NCBI RefSeq assembly: GCF_015057185.1
Contig: NZ_SVEV01000015.1
Coordinates: 1 to 64,000 of the forward strand
Reading direction: 5' to 3'
Origin: Pseudobutyrivibrio sp.
GTDB lineage: Bacteria; Bacillota; Clostridia; Lachnospirales; Lachnospiraceae
DNA length: 64,000 bases
Shown in pieces: positions 1-15,654 of the stretch; the first letter of the stretch is position 1, and every line of letters starts with the position of its first letter. The notes beneath the pieces were generated by a model. The model ran no database searches. It had not been told where the DNA came from and worked only from the letters and a program-made list of their open reading frames with translations. Both the position numbers and the translations under genes were made by a program.

Positions 1-68
1 ATACACTTCCCACTATCTGGGCGTGTTCGGGACTTTCACCCGTTAGAGCGCGCCCATGGCGCGCAAAC
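1..68 (-). mobile_element. Group II intron 5' end (probably class C), truncated by window edge
   Basis: Read on the minus strand from about position 68 leftward, the sequence carries a short GC-rich paired start, then GGGTGAAAGTCCCGAAC (about 20-45 on the plus strand as its complement), and then a purine-rich stretch ending GGAAGTGTAT. This order closely matches the start of domain I of bacterial group II ribozymes such as the Oceanobacillus iheyensis intron. It lies directly behind a terminator hairpin and its T-tract, which is the known target preference of class C introns. The rest of the ribozyme and any reverse transcriptase ORF would lie outside the window. The exact 5' boundary (about 65-69) is uncertain. 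Confidence 0.75.
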
Positions 69-73
69 CAAAA

Positions 74-107
74 AAAGGAGTCCTATAAATAGGGCTCCTT
101 ACATAAA
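74..107 (-). terminator. Terminator hairpin serving as intron insertion target
   Basis: On the minus strand an AGGAG...CTCCT stem with a short AT loop is followed by seven T residues, a standard intrinsic terminator. No minus-strand gene lies upstream of it (108-225), so it is orphaned. The intron 5' end starts about 6 bases after the T-tract. Next to it a 9-base unit, cataaattg, is repeated twice in tandem (102-119) with a third imperfect copy. Nothing else was recognised between 130 and the RBS of the next gene. Confidence 0.7.
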
Positions 108-225
108 TTGCATAAATTGCATAATAATTGTACGATGAAAACAAGTATTTATAATCCTTTTTATTTAACGATTAGATATGATAGTATTAGTGTAATGTAT
201 ATTATAAAAAAATTGGGAGGTTAAC

Positions 226-1785
226 ATGTCTCGTACTTTTACAGCCAACACAGAAAACAGTAACTTATGGGCCGGCTTAGGAACACAATATACTTCTATT
301 TCACAAGTTATAAATGAATTTGTGGATAATTCTATATCAAACTTTAAAGGCCATCCCTCACTAAATACCAATAGTATTATTATTACTTTAGAAGAATTAG
401 ATACAAGCGATGTTAAAATTTCAATAGAGGATTCTGGTACAGGAATCTCTGACTTCTCCAACGCCTTTGGCATTGGTGCTAAATCTCGCCAAGATTCCCC
501 CCTTAATGAACACGGATTTGGAATGAAACAAGCCTTTGCTGCTGCAGATCCTCAAAATAGTTCATGGCGCTTATGCACACGTACAGACGCTTCATCAGCT
601 ACTTATGATGAAGTCTCTGCTCCATATACATTTAACAAAGATATGATTATTGATGATTCGAAAACTGATTGGCCTGGAGAGTTCAGTTCAACTGGTACAT
701 ATATCGAATTTACCTGTTCTCATGCCCTTTTTAAAACTGTTTCTCGTGGTATCAAAGGTGATCAATCTAGATTTATTAAGCTTGCCGCTCTTCTTTATGA
801 AGATTTAGGCTTTACATACGCTGGTATTATCAAAACTCTTTCAATTTCCATGAAATTAAAGGTTAAAGAAAAAGGTAAAAGTTTTGCAAGTTATAATTTG
901 AGCGCCTTAGTTCCTAGTCAAAAAAGTGTCTATCCACCAGGAATTTCTAGTGAAACAGTTTCATTTGACGAAGATAGTAATTCATATATCCCTGATAGAA
1001 ATGGTAAACTCACAATTAACTACCAATTTCTTGAGGTTGAGAGTAAAGACACTCCAAAAAATGACTCAGAATTATTTGATAACACAAAATCATGTAAATA
1101 TTACAAAGCCAATATGTCGACTTCTGGTATAGAAATTCGATTTAATGGTCGAGTCATGAAATACAATATTTTTGATGATGTATGGGCTACTGAAAAACAT
1201 AACTCTTATAATTCTTTGCTTGTTATCATTGATTTACAAACAGATGATGCATCATTATTACCAGGAACGACCACTTCAAAAAATGGTCTAAATGAGGGTG
1301 ATGAAAAAATCGAAGCACTTTACGGATGGATTAAAAAGAAGATGCCTAACCCAATTAAATCCATGAGTAAGAGCACAAGTGAAATCGAACTTTTTAACAA
1401 ACTAAAGGAAGATAAGGAACGAGCTTTTTTACACTCATCATCCAAACCTACCGTTTCTGTTGAACAACGTGTATGGCATGCCATTAGTACAGATGAAAAG
1501 AAATTACCTAGAATTGATTTATATGAATGTACTATATCAGGTGATGTAAATATTTATGAAGGTAAATACAATAAAACTGATTCTCAGGATGTTTATCAAT
1601 TAAAAATGTACTGGGACGGTTTAATTAACGATGGCACCACACCTACTTGCGGAATTTTAGTCGCAGATGAGCATCCTGAATGGGTAATTAAATTAGTGTC
1701 CGAAATTAACAAACAGCTAGATTCTAACGGTAATAATTATAATTTTGTTACTGATACATGGAAAAACCTTGGAGTTAAATCATAA
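226..1785 (+). CDS. GHKL ATPase with C-terminal PD-(D/E)XK-like nuclease domain
   Basis: 519 aa. The N-terminal region is a GHKL (gyrase/Hsp90/MORC) ATPase fold: N-box with E31, D34 and N35, an ATP-binding DSGTGI at 69-74, and a glycine-rich NEHGFGMKQ lid at 94-102. Residues about 410-500 look like a PD-(D/E)XK nuclease: helix glutamate E413, D431, E445-G-K447 and Q458 in the canonical order and spacing. The start is supported by GGGAGG at 216-221. Both domain calls are from motifs; the biological role is inferred. ATP-gated nuclease architectures like this are frequent in phage-defence genes, and the gene lies between a group II intron and a tRNA-like gene. It could instead be a DNA-repair ATPase. 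Confidence 0.75.
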   Translation: MSRTFTANTENSNLWAGLGTQYTSISQVINEFVDNSISNFKGHPSLNTNSIIITLEELDTSDVKISIEDSGTGISDFSNAFGIGAKSRQDSPLNEHGFGMKQAFAAADPQNSSWRLCTRTDASSATYDEVSAPYTFNKDMIIDDSKTDWPGEFSSTGTYIEFTCSHALFKTVSRGIKGDQSRFIKLAALLYEDLGFTYAGIIKTLSISMKLKVKEKGKSFASYNLSALVPSQKSVYPPGISSETVSFDEDSNSYIPDRNGKLTINYQFLEVESKDTPKNDSELFDNTKSCKYYKANMSTSGIEIRFNGRVMKYNIFDDVWATEKHNSYNSLLVIIDLQTDDASLLPGTTTSKNGLNEGDEKIEALYGWIKKKMPNPIKSMSKSTSEIELFNKLKEDKERAFLHSSSKPTVSVEQRVWHAISTDEKKLPRIDLYECTISGDVNIYEGKYNKTDSQDVYQLKMYWDGLINDGTTPTCGILVADEHPEWVIKLVSEINKQLDSNGNNYNFVTDTWKNLGVKS

Positions 1786-1887
1786 TATCGTATTAACAAT
1801 AAAAGGGATTTTTTCAAAGGCTCTAAAATATAACTTCTCCAGTTTCAAAAAACTATAGAAATATCATATTACTACTCATTTATAAAG

Positions 1888-1927
1888 AAAGAGAGAGAGC
1901 TTCAAATTAAAGCTCTCTCTTCATTTT
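1888..1927. terminator. Bidirectional terminator between convergent genes
   Basis: A perfect 10-bp stem, GAGAGAGCTT (1893-1902) with AAGCTCTCTC (1910-1919), has a 7-base loop. A T-rich tract follows on the plus strand; on the minus strand TTTATAAAT follows. It separates the convergent GHKL and HNH genes. Confidence 0.8.
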
Positions 1928-3598
1928 TTATGATATTATTTTTGCACCTTTACTACGATTACATTTCCAACATAGTGTCTGAAGATTATCTTCTTGAGTT
2001 AATCCTCCTTTAGCAATTGGAATTATATGGTCAACTTCAAGCAATAAATTAGGCTCTGCACTTGTTGAATTTCCACATTGGCAACAAGTAAACTTATCAC
2101 GTTCTTTGATAAACATTCTTAGCTTCGATGTCATCATAGCTCTTTGTTCTTTTGCCAATGCCTCAATTGACAATTTACTTTCAAGAGCATTAACAAGTTC
2201 AATTATGTTTTCTTCATTCATTGGAACTGTAAAAGAGCGTTGTGCCATACCACCATCACTCGTATATGTAAACTTATATTCCACATTAAGAATGGCTTCA
2301 TCAATTATTGCAAGACCTAATCTCGAATAAAAGCCGTCTTCATCGTTCTCTAAAACATATGCTGGAACATTTTGGATATATTGTTCATAGTCTTTCTTAT
2401 AGTTATCAATAATGACTTTCGCTTCTTTCAAGGTTTCCAGTTCTTCAATAAGTATCTTTAACTTCTGAATCTGCTCCTTGTACTGACTTTTGTTTGGATA
2501 GAAATACTTGATGATATAATTAATTGGATTATTCTCAGCACTACCAAATACATTTGATGAAACTTCAGCTGTAAATGGTGTAATACTCTTCTTGTAAGCA
2601 CGAATATAATTATATGTATCTTCGTGTTGAGTTTCATTTCTTACAACTCTAGTACCAAATAGTTTCGATATAGACTGTGCCTTCTCATCGATATATTCAT
2701 TAAATTCTTTGCGCGAAAGATTTAATGAGTTACAAGTTTCTTTAATCTTCGCAAAATCATCTGAAGCGTAGTACTCACTAATCTTTTTATCATCATCAAC
2801 TATTTTCCTTACTTGAGTCTCAATGTTGATAATGAAATTTTCAAGCATATACCATTCTTCACTATCATTTTGTTTAATCTTTTGAATACTATTGATAGTT
2901 CTATCAAATAGCTGCTGAATCAATTCATCAAGTTTTTTGCTCCTAGCTTTAACAATAAGCTTATCTTTAGAGTCATTCGCAAAGTCAATAATAGAATTGA
3001 CTTTTTCATAATACTCATGCTTCTTGTTTTCAAGCTCTTTTTTCGCTTCTTCCTTCAGAAGTTTATTATACTCTGCTTTTGTCATCAGCCATTCAGGATG
3101 TTCTTCTATCTCTTTAATTCGTGATTCTGAAAAATTTAATAATTTTTCACCTTTACGATTACCAGCTGACGTGATGTAAACTACTTTAACTCTATAACCT
3201 GTTGCTATATTTAATAACCTACGAAGATCAATTGCAACATTATTGTATTGTGGCCGCTCTTTAAACTCATTCTCTTTTAAGAAATCTTCAAGAATATTTT
3301 TTACATCTTTGCGTGTCATCGTGACTTGTTTAATCTTATCAATACAGTCATCATGTTCCTTTAGATATTTAATGTCATCATAATTCTCAAGTGTTTGTCG
3401 ACTTTTAACCTTAACTGTATCATCAGTATTTTTAATAAGAGAACTTATATTAGATAAATGCAGATATCTAAGTATTTCATCATATAATTCACGACGCAAT
3501 CTTTCATTTTCTCGAAACACTCTTGCCTTTTCTTTTTCGTTTTCTTTCTTAATAATAAGAATAACTGCAATAATCAATACAAATATTAAGATACCCAT
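1928..3598 (-). CDS. Membrane-anchored coiled-coil protein with C-terminal HNH endonuclease domain
   Basis: 556 aa. Residues about 2-17 form one hydrophobic membrane segment followed by a Lys-rich stretch, placing the bulk in the cytoplasm. The middle, about 20-460, is charged and helical with probable coiled coils. The C-terminal about 60 residues are a zinc-type HNH domain: C505-x2-C508, the DHI core at 523-525, and C543-x2-C546 followed by NRSKG. HNH domains of this type cut or nick DNA. Substrate and role are not evident. Position beside the GHKL-nuclease gene suggests a defence or mobile-element function, which is inference. The gene is monocistronic, with its own upstream region at 3599-3685. 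Confidence 0.75.
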   Translation of the reverse strand: MGILIFVLIIAVILIIKKENEKEKARVFRENERLRRELYDEILRYLHLSNISSLIKNTDDTVKVKSRQTLENYDDIKYLKEHDDCIDKIKQVTMTRKDVKNILEDFLKENEFKERPQYNNVAIDLRRLLNIATGYRVKVVYITSAGNRKGEKLLNFSESRIKEIEEHPEWLMTKAEYNKLLKEEAKKELENKKHEYYEKVNSIIDFANDSKDKLIVKARSKKLDELIQQLFDRTINSIQKIKQNDSEEWYMLENFIINIETQVRKIVDDDKKISEYYASDDFAKIKETCNSLNLSRKEFNEYIDEKAQSISKLFGTRVVRNETQHEDTYNYIRAYKKSITPFTAEVSSNVFGSAENNPINYIIKYFYPNKSQYKEQIQKLKILIEELETLKEAKVIIDNYKKDYEQYIQNVPAYVLENDEDGFYSRLGLAIIDEAILNVEYKFTYTSDGGMAQRSFTVPMNEENIIELVNALESKLSIEALAKEQRAMMTSKLRMFIKERDKFTCCQCGNSTSAEPNLLLEVDHIIPIAKGGLTQEDNLQTLCWKCNRSKGAKIIS

Positions 3599-3649
3599 AA
3601 AACTACAACCTCATTTGTTTTTATTATTAAAATTATACCAAAAACATCC

Positions 3650-3681
3650 TCAATATAAAAAATTGAAAATTATTCCAATGG
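3650..3681 (-). terminator. Weak terminator after the tRNA-like gene
   Basis: On the minus strand, just 3' of the tRNA-like gene, ATTGGAA pairs with TTTCAAT (one G-U pair), followed by a run of six T residues. This would end a short tRNA transcript and separate it from the HNH gene promoter region. Confidence 0.45.
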
Positions 3682-3685
3682 GAAA

Positions 3686-3757
3686 TAGGAGGTCCGAGAG
3701 TCGAACTCGGGTCCTTTGTACTAAGTACACTGCGCCTCTCCGCTGCGCTAACCTCCT
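3686..3757 (-). tRNA. tRNA-like gene with aberrant anticodon arm (identity unresolved)
   Basis: 72 nt. Read on the minus strand it has a perfect 7-bp acceptor stem (AGGAGGT/ACCTCCT), U8-A9, a 4-bp GCGC D-stem, a perfect 5-bp T-arm (CCGAG TTCGACT CTCGG) and discriminator A. CCA is not encoded, as for the other tRNAs in this window. The anticodon arm is abnormal: the segment GTGTACTTAGTACAAAG folds best as a 5-bp stem with only a 3-nt loop. A normal 7-nt loop leaves three pairs and centres UUA (ochre-reading) with C instead of U at position 33. A TATAAT lies at 3772-3767. It may be a degenerate tRNA or a tRNA mimic. Confidence 0.6.
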
Positions 3758-3887
3758 GTTTTGATTATTATAATATCACTTTCAATGGCATTTTATCGGA
3801 CAGCACAATTTTAACATAGACACCTAAATCCCCTTTTTTCTTCTTTTTTCTTCCATTTTTCTTCATTCAAAAAGCTGATATATGAAA

Positions 3888-3912
3888 ATATCAGCTTAAT
3901 TAAGTCCTAACT
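3888..3912 (-). terminator. Terminator of the RHH/membrane protein operon
   Basis: On the minus strand AAGCTGATAT pairs with ATATCAGCTT around a 6-base loop, followed by TTT. It lies about 40 bases after the stop codon of the 3953 gene. Apart from this and the tRNA-like gene, 3773-3952 shows only pyrimidine-rich sequence. Confidence 0.65.
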
Positions 3913-3952
3913 TAAGAGAACAAATATAATTATTTCTAGACATTAAATATCA

Positions 3953-4345
3953 TTAATATTCCTTACAATATCCTACAAAATTAAGCAAGCCAGTAATTAC
4001 AACTCCTATTCCTATATACATAATTTGTGTTTTTAATGCCACTTCTTTGTACTTATCCCAAATAAACAATGACACCACACCACAAGATATTATTCCAAAT
4101 ACAAATCTAGCTACCTTAAAATTCAACTGAAGCACTACTGATACCAGAATAATTAATCCATAAACACCCCAGCATACTGCTTCGCTATATCCTGCACTTA
4201 TCATCATCAAAAAAGGTAAGAAACCTACTATCAAGCCATTAACAATGTAAAAATGTCCTAGTAAAAACAGAACAATGGTTATCGCAAACATTGCCAATGT
4301 ACCAAAGATACCTATTACTGCTCCAGCCATTTTACCATTATCCAT
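3953..4345 (-). CDS. Small four-helix membrane protein, function unknown
   Basis: 130 aa, almost entirely hydrophobic, with about four membrane helices (roughly 8-28, 32-50, 57-73 and 78-95) and a possible fifth near 105-125. It has no catalytic motif I recognise. It is the second gene of a two-gene operon, 2 bases after the stop of a ribbon-helix-helix protein, so the two are cotranscribed. The context (small DNA-binding autoregulator plus small membrane protein) resembles plasmid or integrated-element modules and some toxin-antitoxin loci, but no family assignment can be supported. Confidence 0.6.
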   Translation of the reverse strand: MDNGKMAGAVIGIFGTLAMFAITIVLFLLGHFYIVNGLIVGFLPFLMMISAGYSEAVCWGVYGLIILVSVVLQLNFKVARFVFGIISCGVVSLFIWDKYKEVALKTQIMYIGIGVVITGLLNFVGYCKEY

Positions 4346-4347
4346 AA

Positions 4348-4785
4348 CTACTCCCCTTTCATTGCATCTGATAGCTTGCTTGCATATACTGCTGCACGTG
4401 CTGCTGTTTTAGCAACCTCGTTTTTATCTTGATCTACAGTAACTGCTCTATCTATATCCCAAACTAAATTCTTTTCAACTGCATCCTGGAACATTCTACC
4501 AAGTCTAGCCCTTACCTGCGCTGCAGACTCTGGATAGCCTGTATTTTCCAACTTTTTCTCAAGATTCTGGAAAGTAGGAAGCGCATGAAGGCTAAAAAAA
4601 CCTTTCTGCGCCCTAGCTTCCCTTTTTAAATTTTCAAATTCAACTAATATATCAAACCCATTGTAACCATAGCGATCCTTAAGAATGCTATATACAAGAT
4701 TATTAACACTTATTCCCTTATCATCAGCCTCTGCTTTCAAGTCTCCATAAACTGCTTCATTCAACGATAAATTAACTCTTGGCAT
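4348..4785 (-). CDS. Ribbon-helix-helix regulator with C-terminal extension
   Basis: 145 aa from the ATG at 4785, chosen because AGAAGGAGG (4800-4792) sits 6 bases upstream and the promoter lies further up. An in-frame upstream ATG at 4860 falls inside the promoter. Residues about 1-40 (PRVNLSLNEAVYGDL...GISVNNLVYSIL) match the Arc/CopG/MetJ fold: a short beta strand with alternating polar residues, then two helices. The remaining about 100 residues are helical and unrecognised. It probably represses its own operon through the repeated sites in its promoter. Confidence 0.7.
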   Translation of the reverse strand: MPRVNLSLNEAVYGDLKAEADDKGISVNNLVYSILKDRYGYNGFDILVEFENLKREARAQKGFFSLHALPTFQNLEKKLENTGYPESAAQVRARLGRMFQDAVEKNLVWDIDRAVTVDQDKNEVAKTAARAAVYASKLSDAMKGE

Positions 4786-4802
4786 ATAATACCTCCTTCT
4801 AC

Positions 4803-4860
4803 ATGAGTGTTGTGCAACCATGTTAATTTGTATTATATGAGTGTCGTGCAATCGTGTCAA
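4803..4860 (-). promoter_or_regulatory. Sigma-A promoter with two direct-repeat operator copies
   Basis: On the minus strand a -35 TTGACA (4860-4855) and a -10 TATAAT (4837-4832) are separated by exactly 17 bases. A 15-base motif, TTGCACRACACTCAT, occurs twice in direct orientation (4851-4837 and 4817-4803), differing at one base. One copy lies in the spacer and one just after the expected start site. The distance is 34 bases, about three helical turns. This is where an autorepressor would bind. Confidence 0.75.
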
Positions 4861-5007
4861 CTATAAACCAACTGCTATATCATGATTTTATTCTGCTATG
4901 TAGTAGCTACTACTTGCGATTACCTTTGCCATAGCTTTTTTCCTTTTCTTTGATGGTTTCATCACCAAAAACACAAATTATGGAAGGCTGATTTAGATGT
5001 TAAAACA

Positions 5008-5044
5008 TAAAAAAAACACTCTCTAGGTTTCCCTAGAAAGTGCT
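5008..5044 (-). terminator. Terminator of the rpsF-ssb-rpsR operon
   Basis: On the minus strand CACTTTCTAGG pairs with CCTAGAGAGTG around GAAA with one mismatch, followed by eight T residues, about 20 bases after the rpsR stop. The stretch 4861-5007 holds a 14-bp perfect palindrome (GTAGTAGCTACTAC, 4900-4913) and no gene I can support. Confidence 0.85.
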
Positions 5045-5062
5045 TTATAATCATTTCAAGAA

Positions 5063-5317
5063 TTAATCCTGTACGTAAGGCATAAGTGCAACGTGACGAG
5101 CACGCTTGATAGCTACTGTAAGAGCTCTCTGGTGCTTAGCACATGTGCCTGTGATACGACGTGGAAGAATCTTTCCACGCTCAGAAATATACTTCTTAAG
5201 CTTTGCTGTATCCTTGTAGTCGATAACGTTATCTTTACCACAGAAAACACAGACTTTCTTTCTTCTATGCATTGGTCTTCTTCTCTGCTGACCATCGCCT
5301 GTCTTATTAAAAGCCAT
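5063..5317 (-). CDS. rpsR: 30S ribosomal protein S18
   Basis: 84 aa, the usual length for S18. The conserved core is visible: [19 protein letters not shown] near the N-terminus, then the segment ending [17 protein letters not shown] and a basic C-terminus. S18 binds 16S rRNA together with S6 on the platform of the small subunit. The two cysteines in VCVFCGK are typical of the zinc-capable S18 form. It is the last gene of rpsF-ssb-rpsR, 15 bases after ssb, and is followed by a strong terminator. Confidence 0.97.
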
Positions 5318-5332
5318 GATTTAACCTCCTAC

Positions 5333-5770
5333 TTAATTGAACGGTAATTCCTCGTCAATTCCATCAGGGATATTCATGAAGCCGTCGCCTGCGTCAGAGC
5401 TTGGTGCGAAACCTGCGCCACCGTCGAAGCTGCTTCCGCCGCTCTGAGAATTCTTGCTCTCTGCGAACTCGACATTCTCGCAAACTACATCAGTGGTGTA
5501 AACCTTCTGTCCTTCTTTGTTTGTGTAAGAGCCAGTCTGAATACGACCCTCAACAACGAACTTTGTGCCCTTGCGAGCATATTTCTCAAGAAACTCTGCT
5601 GTCTTGCCAAAAGCTACACAGTTGATAAAATCAGCTGTCTGCTCATCGCCCTCTCTCTTAAATCTACGATCAACTGCAAGAGAGAATCTTGCAACAGCGC
5701 TGTTGTTTGCTCCACCGTAACGAACCTCTGGATCTCTAGTGAGACGTCCCATAAGAATTACTTTATTCAT
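5333..5770 (-). CDS. ssb: Single-stranded DNA-binding protein
   Basis: 145 aa. The N-terminal about 105 residues are the OB-fold (MNKVILMGRLTRDPEVRY, then FINCVAFGKTAEF). A Gly/Ser-rich disordered linker follows, and then the acidic tip DEELPFN, the docking peptide for replication and repair partners. It coats ssDNA at forks. Its place between rpsF and rpsR is the conserved bacterial order. Confidence 0.97.
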   Translation of the reverse strand: MNKVILMGRLTRDPEVRYGGANNSAVARFSLAVDRRFKREGDEQTADFINCVAFGKTAEFLEKYARKGTKFVVEGRIQTGSYTNKEGQKVYTTDVVCENVEFAESKNSQSGGSSFDGGAGFAPSSDAGDGFMNIPDGIDEELPFN

Positions 5771-5797
5771 AATAATTAATCTCCTTGTCTTATACTA

Positions 5798-6088
5798 TTA
5801 AGCCTCGTCAGCTCTAACGCATAAGAAACGAAGTACGTTGTCCATGATGCGAACATTCTCTTCGATCTGTGCAGGTACGCCTGCCTCAGCATCAAAGTGG
5901 ATGAAGTAATAGAATCCTTCATTCATCTTCTGAATGTCATAAGCAAGTCTCTTCTTGCCCCAATCATCGACGTCTGAGATCTGGCCACCAAAGCGAGTGA
6001 TATACTCCTTTGCCTTTTCAACTGTGGCAGTTCTTGCATCGTCTTCGATCTTCGCATTAACAACGAGTGCTAATTCATACTTGTTCAT
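5798..6088 (-). CDS. rpsF: 30S ribosomal protein S6
   Basis: 96 aa, full length for S6. It begins MNKYELALVVNAKIEDD and contains the conserved GKKRLAYDIQKMNEGFYYF segment. S6 pairs with S18 on the 30S platform. It is the first gene of the operon, with a good RBS (AAAAGGAGG) upstream and its own promoter about 90 bases away. The leader contains two small hairpins, where S6:S18 feedback would act in other bacteria; the conserved S6:S18 motif was not identified here with confidence. Confidence 0.97.
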   Translation of the reverse strand: MNKYELALVVNAKIEDDARTATVEKAKEYITRFGGQISDVDDWGKKRLAYDIQKMNEGFYYFIHFDAEAGVPAQIEENVRIMDNVLRFLCVRADEA

Positions 6089-6172
6089 GCTTTTCTACCT
6101 CCTTTTGGTCTATAGGCCAAGTTACTTTCAAGTAACCTAGCAAGGATATAATTATTTATACCACGAATTAAG

Positions 6173-9980: not shown

Positions 9981-11035
9981 CTAGTGTTCTCCTTCATTGC
10001 CTGTATAAGAAGCAAAATTGCCAAATCAAAATTGACATTTGCATTGAGTCTGGCTCTAGTCTCAGAAATGGTAGCTATAATTTGATTAATTCCATTATAG
10101 CTGCATGTCTGTGCCTGCTCATGAATATCATACAAATCTTCTTTAAAGATTATATTTCCATCATTCAATGTCGCTTTATATAATAGCACATCTCTGTACC
10201 AAAGGGTTATTAAATCTAGCATTTGGTCTATAAAACCCTGGAATTTCTCCCCTTCTGCAGCGTCCTCTTTCTTGTCTCGATCATTAAATTGTTTAATCTC
10301 GGCAACCTCAGAAGATATCTGAAACTCATCCATTTTGCCGACTTTTTTACAGAGAGACTCGACCTTGCCTTTAACCTCGTTAAAGTTTTCATCCCTAACA
10401 AGGGCAATAGCTTTCCCTACATTTCCCTGAGAAAATGTGGAAACCATCTCGGCCTGGTAATCAACAGACTCATACTTTTCCTGCAAAAGTCTTTTGATAC
10501 TTTCCTTTTCAACTGTCTTCATTTGAATTAAGACACAACGGGATAAAATGGTTTGCAAGAATGCATTGTGATTGGATGTCAAAAGAATAATAATTACATA
10601 CTCTGGTGGCTCCTCAATTGTTTTAAGAAGGGCATTTTGAGCCTGTGGATTCATTCTTTCTGCATCTTCAATAATATAGATTTTGAACTTTTTATAGTAA
10701 GGCTTTATATCAACATCATTAATCAGCTGTTCACGAATCTGGTCTACTGTAATATTTCTTTTGAACTTTTTGGTTTTGCTATCAAACTCTCTAGAAATAT
10801 AAATAACGTCTGTATTATTGTGACTTATTGTACGTGCACATGCTGGACACTCACCGCAGGCGTCATCACCTGGGTTTTCACACTGAAGCATTTGTGCAAA
10901 GGCTTCAGCCAACATCATTTTTCCAGAACCCTTTTCTCCGCTGAAAATATAGGCGTGACTATGTTTGCCTGTTTGTACTGCATTTGTAAGAAGACTTTTG
11001 GCGTCCTCTTGGCCTATAATATCTGCAAAGCTCAT
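9977..11035 (-). CDS. holB: DNA polymerase III delta' subunit
   Basis: 352 aa. Clamp-loader AAA+ ATPase fold with the opening FADIIGQEDAKSLL, Walker A GEKGSGKMML (about 33-42), a four-Cys zinc module (C52...CGECPAC) and the sensor-like LLTSNHNAFLQTILSRC. Delta' opens the beta ring with tau and delta to load it on primed DNA. It sits between yaaR and ricT, the conserved Firmicute order. Confidence 0.93.
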   Translation of the reverse strand: MSFADIIGQEDAKSLLTNAVQTGKHSHAYIFSGEKGSGKMMLAEAFAQMLQCENPGDDACGECPACARTISHNNTDVIYISREFDSKTKKFKRNITVDQIREQLINDVDIKPYYKKFKIYIIEDAERMNPQAQNALLKTIEEPPEYVIIILLTSNHNAFLQTILSRCVLIQMKTVEKESIKRLLQEKYESVDYQAEMVSTFSQGNVGKAIALVRDENFNEVKGKVESLCKKVGKMDEFQISSEVAEIKQFNDRDKKEDAAEGEKFQGFIDQMLDLITLWYRDVLLYKATLNDGNIIFKEDLYDIHEQAQTCSYNGINQIIATISETRARLNANVNFDLAILLLIQAMKENTR

Positions 11036-11050
11036 TAAAATTCTCCCAAA

Positions 11051-11491
11051 TCATGTGATGATATCTAAGAGCAAACCTCTGATTTCATCAACTCTATTTA
11101 AAATATCTATGTGATCTCTTTCGTCATTTACAAGTGCTGTTGCAAGCTCGTCCATTTTTTCATCAACAAGCTTTATCATGCCGTAAACTCTGTGGCGACC
11201 TCGCCTATCTAAGAAATTTTCTCGCGAAAACTTGTGGCTACGATTTACTACCTCGTTTAAAAAGTCTTTTACCAATCCACGGTATCGCTTCATGTCGCGA
11301 ATATCCATATGCTCTGATAAAAGTTTGCCCTGTGTAGCAATATCATTCATCAAATTAGTTAGCTTTTCCTGTAAGTCTGCATCGTCAATTGCTGCAGCCA
11401 AAGTGAATTTGAATGTATCATCTACTGGCGCTTTGGCTGTTGTAGCTTCTGTCTGTTGAACTTGATTAACATCACTTACTCTAATATCCAT
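11051..11491 (-). CDS. yaaR: YaaR family protein (DUF327)
   Basis: 146 aa, helical, with the family core around [20 protein letters not shown] and the C-terminal [17 protein letters not shown]. Conserved in Firmicutes beside holB; the molecular function is unknown. It lies 4 bases after the kinase gene and 15 bases before holB, so it is part of the cluster transcript. Confidence 0.88.
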
Positions 11492-11495
11492 AAGC

Positions 11496-12083
11496 TCACC
11501 TACCGTTAATAAATGCTGCTATTCTATCACTGGTAATTAAACTGTCATCATCGTTATTAAATACGTTTGTAATTCTGGCCTTTTCAAGATTTTCTGGAGA
11601 AAAATCCTGCTGGTCAGCTAAATAACGTCTACACATCTCTTCAAATTTTGGATGCTCCTGTAGCTTTTCTCGCTCCAAAGCTCTTGTGAGGCGTGTACCA
11701 TCATCTACTTCTATATATATCGGAATAACATTGTCCTCACCGTAGTAGTCTCGTATTTTTACAAAGCTTTCTACGGTTCCGATAATCAAGTAATCGTGAT
11801 TTGCTAAATCTATACTGCCATCATCCACTGTAAAATAGAACCATGGCCCATGAATTGTGTCGTACTTTCGGATTTCGATTACCTTTCCTGCTTCTATCAA
11901 TCTGTCTTTCTCCTGAACAGAAACGAAATTGTACTCTTCCCCTGGTTTTTCATGACTCCTGATAGGGCGTGTTGTATAGGATACAATTGTTTTTAAATTA
12001 ATATCTTCCCTCTCAAGCAAAAGCTTAAATATTGTGTCTTTTCCTGATGAGCTTTTGCCCATTATGCAATAAATACGTCCCAT
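11496..12083 (-). CDS. Guanylate kinase-like protein in the tmk position
   Basis: 195 aa. P-loop GKSSSGKDT (about 9-17) and [19 protein letters not shown], which correspond to the Walker A and GMP-binding segments of guanylate kinase. The middle ([11 protein letters not shown]) and the lid diverge from canonical Gmk. In Bacillus the equivalent slot between the decarboxylase gene and yaaR holds thymidylate kinase. This protein lacks Tmk motifs such as the DR(Y/F) signature. It is probably a nucleotide kinase paralogue; the substrate is uncertain. Confidence 0.75.
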
Positions 12084-12129
12084 TATTTCCTCTTCATATT
12101 TTAATAATTTTAGTATAATTCACAAACCC

Positions 12130-13509
12130 TTAATTGACAACGGAAACCCCATTTCCGCTTAAGCCTGTAACATGAATTCCAACATTCTTTGCTTTTTTGA
12201 TTAATTCCAAAGCTTCTGTGGTGATTAATTCTCCCGGAACCAGCACTGGCGCTCCCGGTGGATAAAGGCAAACCATTGCCGCCGAAACATGATTAATAGA
12301 ATCTTGTAAATCTATTACCCTTGAACCCTTGGCCTTTGCCTCAAACATTTCCATTTTCTTGGTTGACCTGATGTAAATGCTTGGAAATTCAAATGTACCT
12401 AGCTCTAGACTTTTATCAATTTCTATTAGGGCATTTGCTAGCCTATCAAATCCAGTCTTCGTATCCATAACACTGGTCATTGCCAAAACATAAGCAAAGC
12501 TGGACATTTCAGTTTCAAGTTCATATTTTTCTCTAAGAATTCTGGCAAGTTCAATACCTGTGACATTTGTCTGTCTGGTTGAAATAATTATTTTCCCTGG
12601 GTCCTTGATTTCACTATCTTCATCAACGACCTTTAGATGCTTTAGTTCTCCACATTTACTATAGAAATCCTTCAAGTTTTCCACATAGTTATCAAAGGAA
12701 TCCACGCTTTTTTCCAGATAATCCAAGCATTCACTTACCGAATTCATCAACACATAGGAAGGCGAACTAGTTTCAAAAATATCTAGTGCTTCTCGAATTT
12801 TTCTTCCATCAGCTATTTTGCCCTTTATGTGAAGCGCTGCCGTTTGAGTAAGACTTGGCAATGTTTTGTGCAAGCTTTGCACGGTTATATCTGCAAACTC
12901 AGTTGCCCTATGCTTAAATTCACTATGAAATCCTAAATGGGCACCGTGGGCAGCATCTACTATAAGGCATATATTTTTCTCATGGCATATCTTTGCGATA
13001 ATCTCCAGGTTGGTATGATAACCTTCATAGGTTGGACTTGTTATTACAACAGCCTTTGCATCTGTATTTTCCTGCAATGCCTTTTCAACCATTTCTGGAG
13101 TTACAGCTTCATAAATTCCCTGTTCATCAAGCTTTGGATTTAAATATTCTACCTTTAGATTTCGAATCATCGCCCCATTATAAACACTTCTATGGGAATT
13201 TCGTTGGATGATAATTTTATCTTCCTCTTGGCAAGCAGCGTATATTGCAGCCAAGTTTCCAACTGTAGAGCCACCTACTAAAATAAAGCTTTCGTCTGCC
13301 CCAAAGAGCCTTGCCATTTTTTCCTGTTCACCAGCAATGACATCACTAGGGTCATGTAAATCATCCACACCCTCAACCTCTGTCATATCAATCTTGTATA
13401 CTCCATCAAGATTTCTCTTGTGCCCCGGCATGTGAAATGGGTACATATTTGACTTGGAATATTCGTCTAGAGTTTTCTTTAGGTTCATATTTTGCTTTGT
13501 TACTTTCAT
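12130..13509 (-). CDS. PLP-dependent Orn/Lys/Arg decarboxylase-family protein
   Basis: 459 aa. Fold-type I PLP enzyme of the SpeA/YaaO family: the N-terminal MYPFHMPGHKRN, ITSPTYEGYHTNL, DAAHGAHLGFH, and VQSLHKTLPSLTQTA, where K is the Schiff-base lysine. The C-terminal YPPGAPVLVPGE is diagnostic. It likely decarboxylates arginine or lysine to make polyamine precursors; which one cannot be read from sequence. It heads the holB-ricT cluster, and the divergent MobA-like gene starts 47 bases away. Confidence 0.9.
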   Translation of the reverse strand: MKVTKQNMNLKKTLDEYSKSNMYPFHMPGHKRNLDGVYKIDMTEVEGVDDLHDPSDVIAGEQEKMARLFGADESFILVGGSTVGNLAAIYAACQEEDKIIIQRNSHRSVYNGAMIRNLKVEYLNPKLDEQGIYEAVTPEMVEKALQENTDAKAVVITSPTYEGYHTNLEIIAKICHEKNICLIVDAAHGAHLGFHSEFKHRATEFADITVQSLHKTLPSLTQTAALHIKGKIADGRKIREALDIFETSSPSYVLMNSVSECLDYLEKSVDSFDNYVENLKDFYSKCGELKHLKVVDEDSEIKDPGKIIISTRQTNVTGIELARILREKYELETEMSSFAYVLAMTSVMDTKTGFDRLANALIEIDKSLELGTFEFPSIYIRSTKKMEMFEAKAKGSRVIDLQDSINHVSAAMVCLYPPGAPVLVPGELITTEALELIKKAKNVGIHVTGLSGNGVSVVN

Positions 13510-13556: not shown

Positions 13557-14171
13557 ATGAATAGAACTTTAGTTATACTTTGCGGCGGAGACAGCTCACG
13601 AATGGGCACAAAGAAAGCCCTCTTACCATTTGAAGATAAGACTATGGTTGAATACATTTATAATAAATTCTCACCATATTTCGATAAAATCTATCTTTCT
13701 GTAAATCAGAGAGGTGATTTGGCGCACCTAAATCTCGATGCTACAGAGATTCCAGATATTTCTAGAAATGCCGGCCCTTACGGTGCGATTCTATCTAGTC
13801 TTACTATGATGTCAGGTAAAAAAGCCTTTTTCATGTCTGTTGATACACCTTTTATGGATCCACGTATTGCGGTATATCTCTATGATCATTCCGATGATTA
13901 CGACATCACCACCTTTAATTTTAGTGATGACAATCTAACTATCTGCGGTGTTCTTAGCAAAAAATGTATTGGTACTCTATTTAAAGGTATCTTCTACAAG
14001 CGCGCAAATCTTAGTTTTATTTTGAATCGTTGCAACACAAATATTATCGATATGGAAGAAATCCAGGATATTTCTGTGGTTTCCATGGAGCAACAATTCT
14101 ACAAAGTTAATGATAGAAATTCCTACTACTATGCTGTTTTCTCTATCCTCAAGCACAACTTTGTATGCTAA
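13557..14171 (+). CDS. MobA-like NTP transferase
   Basis: 204 aa from the ATG at 13557, chosen because CAGGAGG (13544-13550) lies 6 bases upstream; a longer reading frame begins inside the divergent gene. N-terminal LVILCGGDSSRMGTKKALLPF is the nucleotidyltransferase signature (GG-x-SxRMGxxKA) of molybdenum cofactor guanylyltransferases, with GPYGAILSSL and SVDTPFM following. No other molybdopterin gene is near. The stop overlaps the convergent 14168 gene by 4 bases. It may transfer a different nucleotide. Confidence 0.75.
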   Translation: MNRTLVILCGGDSSRMGTKKALLPFEDKTMVEYIYNKFSPYFDKIYLSVNQRGDLAHLNLDATEIPDISRNAGPYGAILSSLTMMSGKKAFFMSVDTPFMDPRIAVYLYDHSDDYDITTFNFSDDNLTICGVLSKKCIGTLFKGIFYKRANLSFILNRCNTNIIDMEEIQDISVVSMEQQFYKVNDRNSYYYAVFSILKHNFVC

Positions 14172-15031
14172 TCTAGGAATCGTTTTAGCTGCGGCATCCA
14201 ATCACCCAAGAAGACTACATTGTCTCTAATTGCCTGCCAAATAGGTCTTATAAAGTTAATGAGACAAATATTAACGTCTTCCCATTTTGGTTCAGACTTT
14301 TTCTTTTGGCGTAACTCTACTTTCCATTTTCTTTTCATGTAGGTATAGTCCTTATATTCTTCGAGCATTTTTATTCTTGAATCATCTAAAGAAACTCCAC
14401 GCTCTTCCATTAATTGAGCCACTCGCTCTTTTACCTTTCGACCATTTACTGGATGAGTGGTAAGAATTCTATAGGCTTCGTAATAATGGTCCATGTCATT
14501 TATTAATTCTAATTTTTCGATTATTTCAATTAGGTGTTTGCTTAGCTCTTCTTCCTTTGGATTAGTAAGAACAATTACATTTCTATTTTCATAGGCTGTT
14601 AGCTTTAGATCCATTTTTTCTGGCTCATGGGCAGCTCTATGCTTTTCAAAATAAATCTGAAGAGGAATGTACATTTCATCAACAGTTATCTTAAGGTGAA
14701 TTACTCCCTCCTCAACGGAGCCGTTTACAGCAAATCCTTCTAATGCAGCCTTTGCCATGATTTCTTTTAGAATATCACGCATATATAGAACTGCCATTTT
14801 CTCATCTAGGTCTCTTACATACTCATAATAAATATTGCCTATGCATAAGTCCCTGTAAATATCTGGATTGAAATCCGAGGTATTGCATAGATATAGCTCG
14901 TTACAATATTTCCCGTCAGCAATAAGACCTATGATGATTTCAGCAACTGCTGCAGATAATAAATTTTTAAAAGGAATATTAAGTTGTTCTGATTTTTCCT
15001 TTATCTTAAATCTATTAATCATTATAGCCAC
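14168..15031 (-). CDS. AbiEii-like protein lacking the nucleotidyltransferase signature
   Basis: 287 aa. Position (second gene, overlapping an AbiEi-type antitoxin gene by 10 bases), size, and the C-terminal helical block (ELSKHLIEIIEKLELINDMD then YYEAYRIL, about 155-190) match the toxin half of AbiE systems. However, the GG-S/T...D-x-D metal-binding motif expected near residues 35-60 is absent; that segment reads ELYLCNTSDFNPD. It is therefore either a catalytically inactive relative or an unrelated partner that took the same place. Assignment is inferred from context. Confidence 0.5.
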   Translation of the reverse strand: MAIMINRFKIKEKSEQLNIPFKNLLSAAVAEIIIGLIADGKYCNELYLCNTSDFNPDIYRDLCIGNIYYEYVRDLDEKMAVLYMRDILKEIMAKAALEGFAVNGSVEEGVIHLKITVDEMYIPLQIYFEKHRAAHEPEKMDLKLTAYENRNVIVLTNPKEEELSKHLIEIIEKLELINDMDHYYEAYRILTTHPVNGRKVKERVAQLMEERGVSLDDSRIKMLEEYKDYTYMKRKWKVELRQKKKSEPKWEDVNICLINFIRPIWQAIRDNVVFLGDWMPQLKRFLD

Positions 15032-15654
15032 ACACCTACCATGTTCTGCACTTTCTTAAGGACCTTACGTTCCTTTGCATACTCCATCAATTTGGCTACA
15101 TCCTTTTTTTCATCCATAATGTAAGCCCAAACGCCTTTTTTGAAATCCTCTCTATCAACCTTTTCCTGATATTTTAGATAATCACAAATTAAGCGTTCCT
15201 TTGTGTATATCTTCATTTTCCCACCGGCAAACTCTGTCTCGGTAACACCAAGCTCCAAGACCTCAGGCTCAGTATAGTAAGGAACTACAATTGGGTAATC
15301 TATATTGAATCTTGATTTGCTTGTATTTTTGTTAATGGCAACATTCCACTTGTAAGGTCTATCCTTCAAGTAGCCATACACATACATGGCGGTTTCCATT
15401 GTAAGAATTCCGTCCTCGCCAAACAATTTCAAAATCCACTGATCCTCTGTGCATTCAAAATACTTGGTTGTATAATAGCCACTTTTTACTCTAATTAAAT
15501 AGCCTTCCTCTACAAATGTAAGGACTCTGCGATAATCAACTCCAAGAGCTTCTATTTCGCTAGTTTTCACTAGTCCCCCATTGTTTTCAACCAAGTCATT
15601 AATCTGTTCTAACTGGTATTGCTTTTTTTCGTCACGAGATAATAGCATTTCCAT
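15022..15654 (-). CDS. AbiEi-type antitoxin / winged-helix regulator
   Basis: 210 aa from the ATG at 15654, chosen because AATAGGAGTG sits 6 bases upstream; a TTG further up (15714) lies inside the promoter. Residues about 15-60 form the winged helix typical of AbiEi antitoxins (GGLVKTSEIEALGVDYRR, then GYLIRVKSGYYTT). The C-terminal half matches the family (KERLICDYLKY, then DREDFKKGVWAYI). AbiEi represses its operon and antagonises AbiEii in type IV systems. The promoter 15725-15697 is immediately upstream. Confidence 0.8.
   Translation of the reverse strand: MEMLLSRDEKKQYQLEQINDLVENNGGLVKTSEIEALGVDYRRVLTFVEEGYLIRVKSGYYTTKYFECTEDQWILKLFGEDGILTMETAMYVYGYLKDRPYKWNVAINKNTSKSRFNIDYPIVVPYYTEPEVLELGVTETEFAGGKMKIYTKERLICDYLKYQEKVDREDFKKGVWAYIMDEKKDVAKLMEYAKERKVLKKVQNMVGVWL

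Follow-up and report, generated by a model that had tools for sequence, protein, structure and literature searches.

The window analysed here, 64,000 nucleotides of a contig from Pseudobutyrivibrio sp., begins at a contig end (C46), and 225 bases separate this end from the start of a single intact open reading frame at 226-1785 (+). The frame has an ATG start, is preceded by a likely ribosome-binding site (GGGAGG, 215-220, +) and runs without an internal stop over 519 amino acids. Its product, which has homologues, carries a GHKL ATPase domain at the N-terminus, an S5/transducer-like domain in the middle and a PD-(D/E)XK nuclease domain at the C-terminus. The gene looks stand-alone, with its downstream side visible and its upstream side, where a partner gene may lie, cut by the contig end, and the original prediction of a stand-alone gene fits this visible setting. 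The additional claim that it lies next to mobile DNA holds in part. Window bases 1 to ~80 match the ends of eight other contigs of the same genome with 89-99% identity and thus belong to a multi-copy repeat at this contig end, but the actual upstream neighbour is located beyond it. The repeat resembles what we take to be the end of a group II intron; a typed motif for such an intron gave no match at window 1-80 and all Rfam matches there remained below their gathering scores.

The nearest other gene (1928-3598, -) is convergent with the GHKL-nuclease gene and encodes a 556-residue protein that ends in an HNH nuclease (Pfam HNH, E 7.5e-12) and whose N-terminus looks hydrophobic by eye; it may be a membrane-anchored nuclease. 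A second copy with 75% identity exists elsewhere in the same genome, and none of 60 relatives has a match at E<=1e-20. An operon of the two genes is not supported, since they converge and since an all-against-all comparison of open reading frames clusters no other homologue locus with the HNH gene. Further to the right, a tRNA-like gene was called at 3686-3757 (-) with anticodon TTA ('Stop') and an anticodon arm that appears irregular by eye; a tmRNA hit at the same stretch is weak and falls short of the gathering score. An AbiEii/AbiEi-like pair is present at 14171-15654 (-; PADLOC AbiEii E 6.3e-118, AbiEi E 2.9e-55), with the assignment to reading frames made by eye.

To the right of the GHKL-nuclease gene, the core genes begin with rpsR-ssb-rpsF, identified by eye. 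All 29 genomes of the genus, its own included, have a match to window 3600-6100, with the strongest matches mostly over the rpsR-ssb-rpsF part. By comparison with 13 loci of the genus, window 1-3958 is matched by none and window 3959-4912 by only one. A block that adjoins rpsR in one relative was located in 7 of the 13 loci, counting that relative, and lies 0.9 to 11.8 kb away from rpsR. These comparisons indicate that the stretch bearing the gene is variable within the genus. From window 5055 leftwards, the region downstream of rpsR is variable, with differing stretches in the 13 relatives examined. Foreign GC content was rejected as a sign of transfer: the GC content of the gene (0.339) is no outlier against the core (0.358 +/- 0.039, standard deviation), where 46 of 148 windows are equally low.

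Homologues were collected from several sources. A scan of genome contigs gave 60 pattern matches that resolved into 19 homologue loci. Homologues were further found in 5 of 72,556 plasmid records, while 2 of 50,697 phage records gave a match, one of which covers only residues 12-101 with an E-value of 0.2. Among viral contigs we detected one full homologue and, with the alignment, a second one that is cut by the contig end. In total, 26 homologue regions including that of the window were extracted; the partial L020 and L028, which a contig end truncates, are not among them. Alignment A1 comprises 16 rows, the window protein and 15 homologues that are 22-44% identical to it. Left out were L005, a near copy of L004, the frameshift-split L008, the methyltransferase fusion L025, and L012 and L016, which by eye are near copies of L009 and L017; the annotated records L021-L024 and L026 were set aside to keep the alignment usable for structure prediction and were added to the 16 rows for a tree of 21. 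The homologue in L008 (9953-11442; Gracilibacteria, code 25) occupies two overlapping frames and is hence broken or mis-assembled. Throughout A1, residues E31, D34, D69, G73, NEHG94-97, K352, D431, E445, K447, Q458 and Y462 are kept in all 16 rows.

The GHKL (Bergerat) ATPase domain spans approximately residues 9-175 (250-750, +), based on Pfam, an AlphaFold2 model and Foldseek with limits set by eye. The match to Pfam HATPase_c_3 is just above its cut-off (E 1.4e-5, 25.5 bits, cut-off 25) and that to HATPase_c just below it (25.8 bits, cut-off 26.4). All motifs that had been described as intact are present: the N-box E31-xx-D34-N35 (316-330, +), in which N35 is kept in 13 of 16 rows; D69-S-G-T-G73 (430-444, +), with G71 in 12 of 16; and the ATP-lid motif N94-E-H-G-F-G99 (505-522, +), with G99 in 15 of 16. 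The middle domain, at about residues 180-372 (763-1341, +), is supported by the model and by Foldseek alignments of sufficient length to take in the region, again with limits by eye. It contains the invariant K352 (1279-1281, +), likely the catalytic lysine of the S5 domain, a role that we assume from MutL and related ATPases. T348, G301, R305 and R309 are also invariant, the latter three lying in a MORC-like stretch at about G301-R309. N-box, DxGxG and lid motifs together with an S5 domain with a basic residue are the features of a GHKL ATPase of this type, and the window protein has all of them. The full-length AlphaFold2 model, built from the full alignment, has a mean pLDDT of 79.9 and a pTM of 0.66; pLDDT falls below 50 at residues 1-8, 83-92 (beside the ATP lid), 249-258, 295-298 and 378-381. 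With this model, the best Foldseek match in the PDB was SMCHD1 (E 5e-14, TM 0.42 of query), and topoisomerase VI-B, GyrB, MORC3 and MutL were matched as well, with the similarity in the N-terminal half of the window protein. The window protein thus appears to have the GHKL plus S5 fold in common with the ATPase modules of MORC/SMCHD1, topoisomerase VI-B and MutL.

Residues 383-519 (1372-1782, +) are predicted to form a PD-(D/E)XK nuclease domain. Modelled alone with AlphaFold2, they reach a pLDDT of 95.4 and retrieve with Foldseek first NucS (2vld, E 1.9e-4, TM 0.56 of query), then EndoMS (5gke, E 1.7e-3) and EcSduA (8ps5, E 0.022), followed by weaker matches to AF1548, SfsA, Can2, McrC and Cap4. 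As only two NucS chains pass an E-value of 0.001, Foldseek lends the nuclease assignment moderate backing. A comparison of domain profiles also found NucS (E 2.6e-5) and EndoMS (E 0.0039). With the single sequence, NCBIfam matched NucS weakly at residues 429-484 (E 0.026), no Pfam nuclease model was matched at E<=1 and no PDB sequence at E<=10. Across the 16 rows, Pfam NucS_C matches two (best E 2.6e-5) and Cas4 five (best E 0.013). The predicted core fold carries the expected D, (D/E)xK and supporting Q. Predicted active-site residues D431 (1516-1518, +) and E445-G-K447 (1558-1566, +; E and K in every row) align with NucS residues 160, 174 and 176, and Q458-L-K-M-Y462 (1597-1611, +), invariant at all five positions, places Q458 opposite NucS residue 187. 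We take these four NucS residues to be catalytic in NucS and the Q458-Y462 stretch to be a QxxxY motif of the RecB/NucS/Cas4 type. E413 (1462-1464, +), which had been listed along with D431, E445-x-K447 and Q458 as part of the active site, is the exception: of the 16 rows, 11 have E at this position, three D and two Q, so that it is only partly conserved. Conservation at 22-44% identity, the NucS profile match and the confident domain model together make a chance resemblance unlikely. The proposed fusion of a GHKL ATPase with a PD-(D/E)XK nuclease holds, and the C-terminal fold is predicted to be NucS/EndoMS-like instead of an unrelated one.

By profile and by fold, NucS/EndoMS (PDB 2vld, 5gke) provide the solved structures closest to the C-terminal domain, and their D, ExK and Q line up with those of the window protein. 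However, NucS has its own N-terminal domain and no GHKL ATPase, and the similarity is confined to the catalytic region. Membership in the NucS/EndoMS family was rejected as the whole NucS protein is not matched. A true MORC in the sense of Iyer 2008 was likewise rejected because the strict S5 motif GhXhhpXXRhl occurs in 0 of 16 rows; its absence is as expected for a paraMORC. According to the description by Iyer, Abhiman and Aravind (2008, PMC2292703), paraMORC3 proteins combine a GHKL and S5 module with a C-terminal restriction-fold domain that has similarity to RecB and E-D-ExK motifs, and a subset are stand-alone genes without conserved neighbours. As far as that published description goes, the window protein fits paraMORC3: it shares the architecture, the E-D-ExK motifs, the sporadic occurrence and the stand-alone look, although the leading position, acidic (E or D) in 14 rows, is Q in the other two of the 16. 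In PMC2292703, stand-alone members are mainly from proteobacteria and bacteroidetes, whereas the host of the window gene is a Firmicute.

A second precedent is VcSduA of V. cholerae, which according to a 2025 report (PMC12137116) consists of a GHKL ATPase and a DUF4263 nuclease and has anti-phage activity in E. coli and V. cholerae. There, E27A in the ATPase and K557A in the nuclease each abolished this activity, and the authors tie GHKL-nuclease proteins like VcSduA to paraMORC3 and to Shedu type I-D. We count this precedent in favour of a defence role of the window gene. The likeness consists in a single protein with an N-terminal GHKL ATPase and a C-terminal PD-(D/E)XK nuclease. The VcSduA nuclease, on the other hand, is of the DUF4263/SduA_C type, and SduA_C (PF14082) matches the window family in 0 of 16 rows at E<=0.1; nor does it match anything in the window's own genome at E<=0.001. 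An order-level relative encodes a 670-residue GHKL plus SduA_C protein (L030, 1186-3195, -), a candidate GHKL-type Shedu. Comparison of our profile by hhalign with this protein, which is not VcSduA, aligned the ATPase motifs alone with a probability of 12.9%. Shedu membership was rejected on these two grounds: judged from sequence, the window family resembles VcSduA in outline but is not Shedu by its defining domain. The architecture has precedents, in the GHKL-S5-nuclease proteins of paraMORC3, some of them stand-alone (PMC2292703), and in the GHKL ATPase with a Shedu nuclease of VcSduA (PMC12137116), so that the original suggestion of an undescribed effector holds only in part. For the combination of a NucS-like nuclease with a GHKL ATPase, no description was found in the open-licence PMC literature, an absence that is weak evidence.

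The GHKL-nuclease gene occurs as a single copy in its own genome and is absent from all 98 relatives compared, 28 of which belong to the same genus. None of 397 other genomes of the phylum matches by profile at E<=1e-10, where scoring was limited to the leading candidates in each genome (e.g. 3 of 8), so that a miss is possible. Of the 295 genomes in the class to which the nearest relative belongs, two match: the genome of that relative itself and another in which the match is to the ATPase half only, beside a C5 methylase. In a genome of the class of L002, locus L034 has a C5 methylase, then a GHKL protein and the beginning of a third gene, a set that looks like a MORC-type restriction operon. 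In the tree, the window protein groups with proteins of Winogradskyella (Bacteroidota, Flavobacteriaceae), of a contig from a viral collection and of two Lactiplantibacillus plantarum plasmids (88/94), apart from the Clostridia rows and inside a set of nine rows (100/98) that includes Clostridia and Treponema rows and a phage record. This conflict with taxonomy suggests horizontal transfer. The homologues are scattered across phyla, and several are plasmid-borne or have integrases, recombinases or restriction-modification genes next to them. Overall, the gene probably moves horizontally, and we count the patchy distribution together with the conflict between tree and taxonomy in favour of a defence function.

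The same data bear on a role in DNA repair, in which the protein would act as a one-chain analogue of MutL plus EndoMS/NucS on mismatched or branched host DNA. Such a role would agree with the MutL-related ATPase module and with the nuclease domain being closest to NucS/EndoMS, and Iyer et al. suggest repair for some members outside restriction contexts (PMC2292703). A housekeeping repair gene, however, would hardly be missing from all of the relatives and other phylum genomes searched, its homologues are found on plasmids and beside recombinases, and the similarity to NucS spans the catalytic domain only. We therefore regard repair as quite improbable.

The surroundings of the homologues are varied and not conserved in the loci read, which speaks against the housekeeping context that would have contradicted the original prediction of an anti-phage effector. 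L027 is flanked by two large serine recombinases, and tyrosine integrases adjoin L011 and L017. L022 is followed by a recombinase gene, and the second gene upstream of it encodes a Sau3AI-type endonuclease. A small mobilisable plasmid carries L021, preceded there by a PDC-S53 candidate defence gene. The start of L006 overlaps by one base the stop of the N6/N4 methyltransferase gene in front of it, and its surroundings also hold a C5 methylase and a restriction endonuclease predicted to be of type II. The mobile or restriction neighbours of L027, L011, L017, L022 and L006 and the candidate defence gene of L021 are counted for a defence reading. A PDC-S01-type gene lies ~1.5 kb upstream of L026, and a PemK/MazF-like toxin gene upstream of L003. 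No defence gene was recognised in the neighbourhoods of L002, L008, L015 and L019 (the last two judged by eye), and this counts against a defence reading. PADLOC families matched at E<=1e-8 numbered 71 for 69 homologue-neighbour proteins and 31 for 53 control proteins of the window core, a comparison that counts families matched and not proteins with a match. The neighbour scans covered 69 of the 101 listed open reading frames, from 10 of the 12 loci (without L023 and L025). As the control core holds the AbiE-like pair and housekeeping look-alikes, we do not claim a measured enrichment. Across the 16 rows, the best match to any PADLOC 2023 model has an E-value of 0.0078, which likewise counts against a defence reading.

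Methyltransferases near several homologues raise the alternative that the protein is the restriction subunit of a restriction-modification system. Its nuclease would then rely on a nearby or distant methyltransferase, and its ATPase would loop DNA between recognition and cleavage sites, as was proposed for MORCs and paraMORCs by Iyer et al. (PMC2292703). Besides L006 with its overlapping N6/N4 methyltransferase, C5 methylase and predicted endonuclease, this would agree with the very distant homologue L023, near a C5 methylase, an SNF2 protein and a MutH/Sau3AI endonuclease, with the type I HsdM near L009, and with L025, whose ATPase-half homologue is fused to an annotated DNA methyltransferase. 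In L025, a Halobaculum plasmid, the region homologous to the GHKL half and the methyltransferase share one reading frame (9995-12922). At the window itself, on the downstream side of this contig-end gene, none of the three nearest open reading frames scanned is a methyltransferase, and none was recognised in the flanks read of the nearest relatives L002, L027 and L021. A restriction subunit is thus an unlikely explanation, one we would still keep in mind.

Alternatively, the gene could serve the mobile elements that carry it, for instance by maintaining or resolving them or by keeping out rival ones, and not defend the host. Integrases, serine recombinases and mobilisation or toxin-antitoxin genes adjoin homologues, and the multi-copy repeat at the contig end lies beside the window gene. 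Yet no one type of element recurs across the loci read, and L002, L008, L015 and L019 look chromosomal by eye. We consider such a function very unlikely.

The reading that we favour with some confidence is that of an apparently stand-alone, horizontally moving, ATP-gated DNA nuclease of the paraMORC kind, in a single polypeptide, that cuts invading phage or plasmid DNA. In the mechanism that we propose, the protein would act as an ATP-gated dimer: the GHKL domains of two protomers would shut on ATP, and K352 in the S5 domain would complete the ATPase site. DNA would be trapped in the resulting clamp, as thought for MutL, MORC and topoisomerase VI-B. Through closure or translocation, both of the NucS-like PD-(D/E)XK domains at the C-termini could then reach the DNA, and cleavage might follow when a feature of foreign DNA is met, such as ends, branches, topology or a lack of modification.

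A more far-reaching and clearly tentative idea is that the family constitutes a separate single-gene form of immunity, matched by no PADLOC 2023 model at a significant level. In it, an ATP clamp of the MutL/MORC type fused to a nuclease of the EndoMS/NucS type would let the enzyme recognise invading DNA by a structural feature (ends, branches, mismatches or topology) and not by its sequence. The GHKL-Shedu design might in this case have been reached independently of DUF4263 nucleases. VcSduA, with its Shedu-type nuclease, is the only GHKL-nuclease fusion with anti-phage activity that we found in the open-licence literature (PMC12137116). A NucS-type family that follows the same logic would test GHKL clamps as a general gate for immune nucleases, and it would also test whether the stand-alone paraMORC3-like proteins described in 2008 serve in defence. 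The residues likely to be catalytic stand out well enough to be tested directly by mutation.
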